From assembly GCA_017654935.2 (NCBI GenBank), contig CM065710.1:28506385-28570384 (forward strand): a stretch of DNA of 64,000 nucleotides, written 5' to 3'. Made by a program: the position numbers and the translations under genes. The notes beneath the pieces were generated by a model that did no database searches, was not told the DNA's origin, and saw only the letters and a list, made by a program, of their open reading frames with translations. Of the stretch, positions 6,001 through 48,000 are shown in pieces. Each line of letters opens with the position of its first letter. The first letter of the stretch is position 1. Source of the DNA: Phymorhynchus buccinoides. Taxonomy: Eukaryota > Mollusca > Gastropoda > Neogastropoda > Raphitomidae.

Positions 6001-9000
6001 GATGAAATATTTGTATTTTTTGTATCCAACATTTCATTCGATTCGTGTATTGGAGGTATACGTGAGTGTATAGTGAGCGAAAAATAAGCGGAATTATAGT
6101 TTCAGGCGGAAGTATTTCACGCGAACCATGACTCGCAGATACAATCGTCACAATCGAATCGCATTGGGATCCAATCATACACAGTGTGGGCGGTCCTCAA
6201 CCCTTTCACCGCCAATGTCGCATTTTAGCACCACAATGGCTTAACACCCATGTCACTAAAAGGCATCAAATCAGGGCCTGTTATCCGAAGACCCTATTCT
6301 CTTAATTTTGGGAGGTAAGGATAGGCCTAATGTTATATACACGTCACAGAGGAATTCACAATATTGCAGATATTCTATTTTCTCTACCCAGCTAAGTTTA
6401 ACCCTTTCAACGCCAGCCATTTTTCAGCCAAAATGTACCATTAAACCTACCCGGGGAGAGAAAAGATATCGTCTACAATATTGCGTATTCCTCTCTGACA
6501 TACATACAATAGGGCCTATCCTTACCTCCTAAAATTAAGAACATAAGGTCATTGGTCGACAGACCCTCATTTGATGCCTTTTAGTGACATGGGTCAGGCA
6601 TGAACACTACTGTTCCCCCCCCAAAAAGAGATTTTTTCAGCCGAGAAATCCTTCCACCCGGATTTTCAGCTGACATCAGAAGTTTCGTGCACGGCTTGCT
6701 CTTCAGACGCCATTTTGGAAGTGATGATGTCGGGAGGAGGAGAAGGCGCGAAATGATGATCGTGCCATTTAAAGACCCAGCATGCCGAGTTTTTATTCGA
6801 TTTTCTAATTTTTTTTTTTTAGGCGGAGAATTTTTTTTTTTTAAGGTGGAGATTGGTCGATTTCAGAAAAAAATTAGACGGAGAAGGCGGAGATGTTTTC
6901 ATGCCTGATGGGTGCTAAATCATTGTGTTGCCAAGAGGCAACGGTGGCGATGAAAGGGTTAATTTTGACTGGCTGCGAAAGGGTTAAGTGGGTGTCTTTT
7001 TAGGGGAGAGTCTCACCATGCTGAGGAAGAAAGGCGGCTCCTTGATGTAGGTGGACTTGTCGTCCCAGGTGTAGAGCACAGACTCTGGAATGTCCAGGGC
7101 GTTCCAGCGAGCGTTCCCCTTCTGTTGTGCAAAGACAGAGAGAAAACGTGAAACCCTTCTGTTGTGCAAAGACAGAGAGAAAACGTGAAACCCTTCTGTT
7201 GTGCAAAGACAGAGAGAAAACGTGAAAACTTGAACTTTATTTTCCGAGGATAAAGATTTCCGGCAACGACTAGTCTTCCAATCTGTCCTTGATACATAAA
7301 CGAACATAGAATACAAGCATGGCAAGGCATACAATTACACATACAGATTTGAACATAAAGGTAGCAAAGCAGGTGCTATTATGATAAAAGATAGGTTGAA
7401 ATATGGATTTATAAAACTTGCATACGCACATGCATAATTGTTAATACTCGTGCGTGCATACATGTGTGTAACCATACACGCACACACCCGCACGTGCATG
7501 CAAGCATACATGCACATACGCACAGAGATATGCTGAAGCATGTATAAAAGAACTATGCATTATAGAACAGGGCAAACAAATGCAGCAGAGAATGACAATT
7601 CCTATACTGTTTTCAGAGCTTGGGATTACTGACAGTGAAGATTTGGGGTAAACAGGTCTGATTTTTTGTGTTGAAAAGTGGCTGGCAGCGAAAGGGTTAA
7701 TCATACCATTCAGACTCTTCTCTCTCCCCCCGTGGGGATACCGGGGGGTCTTTTGTATAAATAGTTCCCCCACCTTCTGGAAGTTCTGTGCTTGTAACTT
7801 CCTCTAATCTGTCACTCTCTTTGACTCTGCCTTTTCCCTTTGCTTACTGTCATCTACAATCTTTCTGCCTTAGCGGTCCATTCTCCTGCCTTTTTTCACG
7901 AAACGCTTTCAAAAAGATATCCTCCAGCCGAAGTCGGACTTGCTGGGCCTATTTCTTAGTTAGGCGCATAACGGCAGCATGACGCATCTGCGCTCATAAT
8001 TGACAGGAAACTGTCTGAGCGATCGAAGAAGAAGAAGAAGAAGACTCTTCTCTTCTCTTCTCTTCCCTCTCTCTCTCTCTCTCCAGCAACCAACTCACGG
8101 AGATCCTGGAGTAGACGTCGTTGAACATGGCAGGGACCACAGACTGCTTCTCCACCTCCTGTGAAAAAACCACACACACACAGACACAACATTAGCATAA
8201 CAGCAGCATCGCTATTGGCCACTGCAACTAGGGTTATTAACGCCCTTGACGGCAAGAGTTAAGCCCTTGTTGATCAGTATCCAAAAGGGCATTCACTCCT
8301 GTATAATAAGGCAGCCATTAAGTGGCATCAAATAGGGTTATTGGCGAGAGTTATGCCCTTGTTTGGTCAGTACTCAACCATCTTCCCCCACCCACCAAGG
8401 GCATTCACCCTTGCAAAAGGTGCTCCTTGCAGTGGCCAATACACAGCAACAAAATGCGAACGTGCGTGTGTGTGTTGTTTTTTTACTTGTTTTTAATCAT
8501 TGTTATTTTCTCCATAATTCGAGATTGATAAATTATGATTTAGACTAAAAAAGCGACCGAAAAAGACTGAAAAAAAAGCTGAAGCACATTTTGTTGTTAA
8601 ATTTGGGGGGTGCGGCTTATAATTAGAACTAGAAGTGCCTTGTGGTCCTTGAAATACGGTAAGTTCTTCAACATTTGCACATAAAAAGTGTGACGGTTGT
8701 TACAATTACCTGGATCTCATCTCGTGTGGGCCAGATGTCCCTGAGGAAGACAGGTTTCCCTTCGGGGTTGGTCCCTGTGGACAGACAGACAGACACCGTC
8801 GGGGCATCAACCAAAAGAAAACATGTGTAATAAAAGACACAGACAGACAGACAGACACCGTCGGGGCATCAACCAAAAGAAAACATGTAAATAAAAGACA
8901 CAGACAGACAGACACCGTCGGGGCATCAACCAAAAGAAAACATGTGTAATAAAAGACACAGACAGACAGACACCGTCGGGGCATCAACCAAAAGAAAACA

Positions 9001-45000: not shown

Positions 45001-48000
45001 TCCTGGACAAAAATATCCTGAACTTCAGGACATCCTGGACAAAAAATCCTGAACTTCAGGACATCCTGGACAAAATATCCTGAACTTCAGGACATCCTGA
45101 AAGCAGGAGCATCCACGCAAATATAAAGGGGTCAGGGGGTTGTGGGAGCTGAGGCAGAAACGAGTGACGAGAGTTAAAGAAAAAACGTGGACGGACCTTC
45201 GAGAGACGTCAACCTGCACTGAGTGGTCGATGACCAGGTCGGTGGGGCAGATGGGGTTGATCTTGGTGGGGTCCCCCCCCAGACGCGTCACCGCCTCACG
45301 CATGGCCGCAAAGTCCACCACCACCGGAACACCACTGACAGGAAAAAACAACAACAACAGTTACCGTCATTTTCTGACTATAAGGCAATCTTTTTTTTCT
45401 CCAATTTCGACCTATGCGCCTAATAAACGAGAGCGCCCTATAAGCATGGGTGCAGGCAGTGACCAAAACTTTCTTGCCGAAACCCAATGTACAAAAGAAT
45501 GATATCATGTTAAAGAGCCCTTTCTTCAGGCACTCAGCTGCCTGAAGCAGCATCAAATTGCCTGAATTCAGGCTTCAGGCATACCCACATGCACACCTGT
45601 ATAAGCTGTATTAGTGAACAAAATCGTGAGAAGAGAGGCAACGATTGCCGTGCTCAGTACAGTATAATGTGAGTCTGGACATCGAAAGTGGTCGCGAGTC
45701 GCTGATACGATGGATAGCGAATCTAGACATCGAAAGTGGTCACGAGTCACTGATATGACGAATACTCACGTCAAAATGCTTCAAAATCTGTATTATCGTC
45801 CGAGATACCGTCAAACAGATGCCATAAAAAGGCATAACCCTTCATTGGATGTAAAAAGCATCATTGTAGAGCTTAAAATGCCATAATTCTACCAGTTTTC
45901 GCGAAGAAAAGTCCAAACACAACAACCGGAAGTCGCAAAAACGGAAGTTCGATTATTTGAGAAGGGAGCCAACTCTCGATTATGACAGCAGTAATGGCAG
46001 TCGGTAAGAGTTTACGGGCTTCAAACTTCGACTTTCTTTTGCGAGGTGTGTATCGCCTTATAAACGAGGGTGCCTTTTACTTTAAATTGCAGTATTCGCC
46101 TTATACACAGCAGCGCCTAATTATCTGAAAAATATGGTACTCATTAAGATGTAAAAACGAACGGCTCACGTAAAATCCTGCAGTAAGACTCGTGCCGGTT
46201 TGAAGGGGATTTCTACACTCTGATCCATAGCCGGAGATCACCGCAGTATGCTGCGCACATCTTTACGTTACGCTTAAAATATACAGTGATGTAAGGTCAC
46301 GCATTATGCATTAAGATGTAAAAACGAACGACTCACGTAAAATCCTGCAGTATGACACGTGCAGGTTTGAAGGGGATCTCCACACTGCTCTCCATGGCCG
46401 GGGACCACTGCAGTATGCTGCGCACATCTTTCTCCAGCACGTGAAAATTGTCGCAGTTCCTCACCGCAGACTCCAGCAACACCCGTATGGAGAACGGCAG
46501 CTTCTCTGAAAGCACAGGGCAAAACCACAAAACTGCACTGAATAGATACATAAAAAACACACACACACAAAACACCACATTGACCAGAGCGAGGTATTTC
46601 AACCGGCCCCAAAACAATTTTCGGTAAAGGCAAAGATGCGCCCCCCACCCCACCCCCTTCCTCCATTTCTTGGTTGTTTCCAGTTTTTCAGTCTTGCCTT
46701 TCTTACTGCAGATATCGAGTACTTCATCCTCTATTGTTTGCTTCTTTTTTTTCTCCATAAGGGTCTCCCACCAATTGGATGCTAATCTCATTATCATCCG
46801 GCTATATTTAACACTAATTTTCATCCATTTACATAATTAAACACATGCATTCAATAATAGTAGAAGATAAAGGCAAGACGGAAAAGACGCAATGAACCAG
46901 GACTGACAAATGCTCCGCGGCTGTTGTGTGTACTGCACAGACCTGTTTACCCCCTGCACAAGTCTTGAGTAGTCTGGATAGCTGAAATGAGTAGTTTTGG
47001 TGTGAAATGAGTAGTCCTCTTCATTAAACCATCAAATAATGTTCACTGAAAATGAGTAATTAGAGCATTATTTTAAATTTTGAAGAGTAGTAGAGGTCCA
47101 AATTGAGTAGAAAACTACTCGAAAAGAGTAGAGTATGGTCTGACTGCACTACATAGGGGGGGTCCTATTAAAAAATGGCCTTTATCATGACTGCGATTAA
47201 TTATTCAACAAAGACAACTAGCTGAAAAGGTTTGTAAAATACAGCTTAATGTTTGGTAAGAAAGGCAAGTGTGAAAATGCGGGGAGAGCCGAGAAATGCA
47301 AGGGGGGGGGGGGGGGGGGGGGGCACAAACTTGACCTTTATCTAATTTTCAAACTGCACTGACTTTGAATAGTGAGAATCAAACAACTTATCCGCTCACT
47401 TCTTCTTCTTCTATTCTACGATCGCTCAGTTTCCTGTCAATTATGAAGAGCGCAGATGTGTCATGCTGCCGTTATGTGCCTAACTAAGAAATAGTTAGGC
47501 CCAGCATGTCCGTCTTCGGCTGGAGGAAATCTTTGTAAGAGTTTCTTGAATCTTGTATAAATAAAATTTGGGGGTGCGCCTTACACACACTACCACACAC
47601 ACACACACACACACACACACACACTACACACACACACACTACCACACACACACACACTACCACACACACACACACACCTACCACACACACACACACACAC
47701 ACACACACACTACACACACACACACACACACACACACTACCACACACACACACACACACACACACACACACACACACACACACTACACACACACACACAC
47801 ACACACTACCACACACACACACACACACACACACACACACACACACACACACACACACACACACACAGTGACACACACACACACGCACACGCACACACAC
47901 ACACTGACACACTACCACACACACACACACAGTGACACGCACACACATAACTCGCTTTCTCTCATAGTCATACATGCACACAGGCATGCACGCAAACACA

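Follow-up and report, generated by a model that had tools for sequence, protein, structure and literature searches.

Nine exon edges of a single gene, with their splice sites, are copied into the adjoining introns in a 64,000-nucleotide stretch of the genome of the snail Phymorhynchus buccinoides (hereafter the window; all coordinates are positions within it). The minus strand of the window appears to encode ACO1/IRP1 (cytosolic aconitase, iron regulatory protein 1). Minisatellite-like duplications of exon-intron boundaries have been described in amphioxus under the name 'mirages', as related in the accessible portions of two papers (PMC3087553, PMC3902484), and the snail ACO1 locus is a mollusc case of them, and an unusually dense one. 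Boundary minisatellites of molluscs were not found in the literature searched, which covered open-licence papers only; with the amphioxus mirages already known, we have therefore classed the locus as a new mirage case. We consider it probable that the copies are ordinary local tandem duplications in which the duplicated unit happened to straddle one exon edge.

Exon edges of ACO1 are copied into the adjoining introns

Fifteen exons, placed by homology and GT-AG borders, make a single open frame, and these are numbered 3 to 17 so as to match the list given in an earlier sequence-only reading of this DNA. Two more, exon 2 (48387-48482) and the conserved exon 4b (43212-43358; 147 bases, in frame, with GT-AG borders), which lies between exons 4 and 5, were added using the proteins of relatives. 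The mapped total is 17 exons, or 34 edges; the window yielded neither exon 1 nor the C-terminal exons.

Comparison of the window with itself at a score cut-off of 18, after masking of simple repeats with periods up to 6, gave 246 local pairs against 1 in a reversed-sequence control. The copies so recovered span eight edges: the donors of exons 3, 6 and 11, and the acceptors of exons 7, 8, 10, 12 and 17, of which the exon 7 acceptor copy is marginal (score 19 only). The ninth edge is the exon 14 acceptor; there the alignment is interrupted by a small deletion, and we identified the splice site by eye. Together with a probe search, these observations bear out all nine exons named in the sequence-only reading, as well as its statement that both 5′ and 3′ edges are involved. 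In all, the neighbouring introns carry copies of 9 of the 34 edges, namely six acceptors and three donors, a difference that is not significant (p 0.51).

The probe search returned one match for exon 3, ten for exon 6, two for exon 7, eleven for exon 8, ten for exon 10, five for exon 11, four for exon 12 and two for exon 14. It returned none for exon 17, yet two perfect extra copies of that edge are evident in the sequence and in the output of Tandem Repeats Finder (TRF); they were probably missed through a gapped join. The earlier claim that the splice site is always included is true of most copies, but one exon 7 match, one exon 11 match and both exon 14 matches (one coding only, the other intron only) have no alignment over it. 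Similarly, the reported range of 5 to 115 coding bases per copy stands at its lower end, with minima of 3 or 5, but 115 was not reproduced, the maximum being 95 by DNA comparison (exon 3) and about 99 by tblastn.

The positions of the copies are highly regular. When the coding sequence alone was compared with the window, all 28 direct exon matches away from their own locus (score at least 20) lay within the neighbouring intron on the corresponding side, as the sequence-only reading had it, crossed no other exon, and ended 9 bases or less from the exon edge. The same coding-sequence search gave one inverted copy at score 21 and none at 24, and inverted or dispersed copying was rejected on this basis. 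TRF reports head-to-tail arrays at exons 17, 12, 11, 10, 8 and 6. A tandem unit that spans the boundary is present at the edges of exons 8, 10, 11, 12 and 17, which TRF arrays overlap, and the self-comparison adds exons 3, 6 and 7. The features are listed in Table 1.

Table 1. Exons and edge copies of the ACO1 locus, ordered by position in the window.
Feature	Position	Strand	Remarks
ACO1 exon 17	7017..7121	-	GT-AG, open frame
37-bp unit x3	7117..7227	-	perfect; acceptor + 5 coding bases of exon 17
58-bp array, about 37 copies	8781..10910 (2.1 kb)	-	7 bases from exon 15 acceptor; begins in pyrimidine tract, without coding bases; excluded from the edge-copy count
ACO1 exon 14	11195..11351	-	
Single exon 14 5′ edge copy	11752..11826	-	offset about 476; small deletion near acceptor; 67 coding bases at 90%; splice site part read by eye
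ACO1 exon 12	14414..14549	-	
83-bp unit x4.9	14497..14901	-	acceptor + 53 coding bases of exon 12; 4 extra copies, AG retained 4/4
Exon 11 3′ edge copies	15246..16032	-	decayed; 5 found, 4 reach splice site, GT retained 2/4
ACO1 exon 11	16033..16180	-	
ACO1 exon 10	16755..16883	-	
Exon 10 array	16864..18359	-	acceptor + 14 or 20 coding bases; 10 copies, AG 10/10; TRF periods 109, 234, 343
ACO1 exon 8	21751..21922	-	
Exon 8 array	21878..23338	-	pyrimidine tract, acceptor, mostly 45 coding bases; 11 copies, AG retained 11/11; TRF periods 75-87
ACO1 exon 7	24937..25076	-	
Exon 7 5′ edge copy	25522..25586	-	decayed; with acceptor; 82%, 40 coding bases, offset about 485
Exon 6 3′ edge copies	25703..26765	-	10 found, TRF period 112; GT 9/10 (probe search); 3 to 81 coding bases
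ACO1 exon 6	26886..27069	-	
Single exon 3 3′ edge copy	46145..46264	-	95 coding bases + donor GT, 88%, offset 167
ACO1 exon 3	46337..46505	-	

The reach of the copies into the introns was measured outward from each exon to its most distant copy, which gives upper bounds with unrecognised filler counted. On this measure, about 1693 of the 1809 bases of intron 6 fall within the combined spans of exons 6 and 7, and about 1148 of the 1483 bases of intron 11 within those of exons 11 and 12. The spans are 192 of 1002 bases in intron 3, 1416 of 3014 in intron 7, 1476 of 3538 in intron 9, 467 of 1772 in intron 13 and 106 of 977 in intron 16, with a total of about 6.5 of the 39.4 kb of intron; those of the exon 7 and exon 14 copies are nearly all filler.

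Unit ends and the history of the arrays

The exon contributes 5/37, 53/83, 45/79, 14/109, 68/112, 30/141 and 95/167 bases of seven units, or 13-64%, a spread that does not differ from uniform in a test of low power (Kolmogorov-Smirnov p 0.25; exons 7 and 14 are omitted, and the values for exons 6 and 11 were each picked from copies that vary). Breakpoints are thus not seen to cluster at the junction in these seven units, and the proposal of a process that starts at exon-intron boundaries draws no support from them. Inspection of the breakpoints of exons 12 and 17 by eye showed no clear microhomology. A step in guanine-plus-cytosine (GC) content between exon and intron, which had been put forward as the cause, is also unsupported: 12 gene-body families away from edges have a mean GC of 0.43 in their first blocks, like the introns (0.45; exons 0.60), although the number of families is small.

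The exon-side end is identical in 9 of the 11 exon 8 copies and in all four exon 12 copies, and the four exon 12 copies also share a base that is absent from the exon. At exon 8, nine of ten aligned copies (the farthest of the eleven is omitted) reach one differing position, where eight carry T, in contrast to the C of the exon and of the farthest aligned copy. Because of these shared ends, and the shared base at exon 12, a single founding event followed by amplification within the intron fits both arrays, and the array-specific bases suggest that the units amplified among themselves. Across 31 of the 40 probe-search matches of exons 6, 8, 10, 11 and 12, each of the five sets has 1 to 5 columns that the copies share but that are unlike the exon, a signal that is clear for exon 12 and thin for exons 6 and 10. 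Exon 10 has two exon-side ends, with five copies carrying 14 coding bases and five carrying 20, and these may reflect either two separate founding events or a single one with a later deletion; at exons 6 and 11 the varied ends could possibly result from more events or from decay. The description of the edges as 'repeatedly copied' need not apply to exons 8 and 12, while more than one event is possible at exons 6, 10 and 11.

Two further features of these arrays may be noted. Between 16979 and 17825 the two exon 10 unit types are mixed, with a higher-order TRF period of 343 bases. The exon 12 array is adjoined by a 29-base array at 14903-14989, whose unit resembles, by eye, the pyrimidine tract of the exon 12 acceptor and which is perhaps an older layer of the growth of that array.

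Repeat families straddle exon edges more often than expected

The window contains 39 local repeat families, of which 21 lie inside the gene body. Each was moved at random, with positions that swallow an exon or fall inside one barred. Nine of the 21 gene-body families straddle an edge where 1.96 are expected, and none of 6000 shuffles reached nine; there is a similar excess over the whole window (9/39 against 2.34 expected, p 0.0005) and among young families, defined by a best pair of at least 88% identity and a score of at least 30 (5/12 against 0.96, p 0.0013). In these counts the exon 14 blocks had been manually extended across the splice site, a change made once the data had been seen. Without that extension the figures are 8/21 (1.87 expected; none of 1500 shuffles) and, for young families, 4/12 (0.91 expected, p 0.012), and two other subsets give 7/15 (1.74 expected) and 7/17 (1.58 expected, p 0.0013). 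Candidate reasons for the excess are a more mutable splice region, longer visibility of duplications in which selection preserves one copy, and the choice of an extreme locus.

How the copies may have arisen

We propose that the founding event would be a local tandem duplication, mostly of about 37 to 170 bp, across one exon edge, with the result that the duplicated edge ends up in the intron as a decoy splice site. Such a duplication would be tolerated, since a complete exon, bounded by both an acceptor and a donor, is formed only with the copy adjoining the full exon, so that the true site stays usable and the frame is kept; that the true site wins by way of a complete exon rests on the general idea of exon definition. 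Intronic units would later amplify and homogenise by slippage or unequal exchange, in the manner of minisatellites, lengthening the intron, and old copies would decay. We infer these mutational steps, the tolerance by exon definition and the order of events, and also that the single copies at exons 7 and 14, at a distance of about 480 bases, began in tandem. A duplication within an exon would lengthen the protein and one of a whole exon would double it, while one that straddles an edge would leave the exon whole and place the copy in the intron. Because only straddling and purely intronic duplications should survive easily, copies that include a splice site and lie beside their exon would be expected from this process, with no need for one that seeks out boundaries.

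Several considerations weigh against this interpretation. While the number of families at edges supports a process that recurs beyond chance, as the sequence-only reading held, coverage does not: 26% of edges (9/34) have copies, whereas local repeats, counting the edge arrays, take up 42% of the intron positions away from exons in the gene body and 15.5% of positions outside it. The edges have seen many events, but there is no enrichment per base; the higher intron coverage arises because a few large arrays, above all that at 31255-38149, fill much of the intron. When TRF arrays alone are considered, 5 of 36 overlap an edge against 2.09 expected (p 0.05). Thirteen of the 36 lie within 100 bases of an exon edge (5.08 expected, p 0.001) and the same 13 count within 150 bases (6.49 expected, p 0.012), but within 300 bases it is 14 against 10.46 (p 0.13). 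The use of the true splice sites is deduced from frame and homology, and the evidence comes from a single locus that was picked for its striking look. Finally, of the 80 splice-dinucleotide bases that 40 copies contain, 2 are changed, against 7.3 expected from each copy's own rate (p 0.023), a deficit that plain neutral decay does not predict, although the test is weak because array copies share ancestry and are not independent, and because one exon 6 copy scored as unchanged shows a gap in the probe search. The exon 6 copy with 3 coding bases and the copies of exons 14 and 17 were omitted from it.

The excess at edges has nearly an even chance of being a matter of visibility and choice, with duplications falling evenly along the gene, the exon copy staying recognisable for longer because selection holds it, and the locus having been flagged as extreme. 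The decayed copies at exons 7, 11 and 6 are consistent with this, as are the coverage per base and the confinement of the comparison to one locus, but the excess persists among the young families.

It is also conceivable, though we are inclined to doubt it, that exon edges are a true mutational hot spot, with duplications initiated at the junction by breakage, by slippage in the pyrimidine tract or by damage linked to transcription, a process that would add to local tandem duplication and not stand opposed to it. The family excess, the crowding of tandem arrays of all kinds within 100 bp of edges, the two exon-side ends of exon 10 and a duplication at the equivalent exon 12 edge in Nucella (see below) all favour a hot spot. 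The scatter of breakpoints in the seven units, the absence of a significant difference between acceptors and donors and the lack of enrichment per base argue against one, and again the data come from one locus.

Selection for the copies as spare, decoy or stepping-stone splice sites is improbable. The deficit of dinucleotide changes points in this direction, but the shared ancestry within arrays means that the test overstates it, the gap in the exon 6 copy scored as unchanged reduces it further, and GT has been lost from two of four exon 11 copies; moreover, reading on from the copied edges meets a stop or the wrong frame in the cases examined (exons 3, 12 and 17). An assembly artefact is very improbable, for although perfect arrays such as that at exon 17 could be miscounted, 36 of the 40 scored copies show 2-28% divergence from the edge when the dinucleotide is set aside and are therefore distinct sequence, and similar repeats in amphioxus PGBD5 survived resequencing according to the available part of PMC3902484.

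Relationship to mirages and other boundary duplications

The amphioxus mirage genes are Adh3, the globins BflGb6 and BflGb9, PGBD5 and troponin C, and the portions available of PMC3087553 and PMC3902484 report that both exon edges are affected, that lengths are unstable and that splicing is normal. The snail ACO1 copies likewise involve both exon edges and have the same architecture. They differ in that the snail is probably a caenogastropod, that nine exons of one gene are involved and are known here from one sequence alone, and that exons 7 and 14 each have a single, distant copy. The sequence-only reading knew of no named mechanism; the pattern does have a name in those two papers, but in the parts we cite the mechanism itself does not.

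Variable tandem repeats at exon-intron boundaries that can form novel introns have also been reported in human segmental-duplication genes (PMC2812944, available in part). There, as in the snail, boundary minisatellites alter intron structure, but those genes are young paralogs with novel introns, whereas the snail has one gene whose exons match a conserved protein. In the Rogers model, named in the accessible text of PMC3087553, introns are gained by tandem genomic duplication carrying AGGT. Tandem duplication similarly supplies splice sites at the snail locus, but no new intron is seen in ACO1; instead, existing introns lengthen. Microsatellites in Conus introns are discussed in PMC3862624, the consulted portion of which makes no mention of boundary copies.

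The five top protein matches among the best 120 of 7996 scored are from Nucella, Littorina, Babylonia, Pomacea and Batillaria, which we take to be caenogastropods, and the highest identity among the matches listed is 89%, to a Littorina protein. A scan of the same best 120 found one internal duplication, in the Nucella lapillus model P0001. This protein carries LLAKKAVEAGLRVKPYIKTS twice, as a 20-residue tandem duplication at residues about 511-551, which begins at the start of exon 12, the edge that bears the 83-base array in the snail ACO1. Judged from the protein sequence, it may be a copied edge modelled as exon or a true duplication within the exon.

Other features of the locus

Exon 4b is found in the Nucella, Babylonia and Batillaria proteins and is absent from the aligned Littorina, Pomacea and Mercenaria proteins; we regard it as a likely alternative ACO1 insert that contains cysteine. 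The largest array in the window, the 6.9 kb one at 31255-38149 noted above, with TRF periods of 41, 37 and 26, lies in the intron that separates exon 4b from exon 5. A search of the whole window against Rfam gave no matches at the gathering threshold.

Implications

A more general proposition, which we regard as tentative and rather unlikely as a whole, is that minisatellites are persistently seeded at exon edges throughout the Bilateria, that junctions are preferred founding sites, and that this process, and not only transposons, builds intron length. Were edges to act as seeds in this way, introns such as 6 and 11 would therefore come to be spanned largely by copies converging from both flanking exons. 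If boundary duplications prove to be common outside amphioxus, they would constitute a datable, non-transposon route of intron growth and a natural test of how the true site is chosen among up to eleven similar decoys, and they could also introduce wrong exons into gene models, of which the Nucella lapillus protein may be an example.

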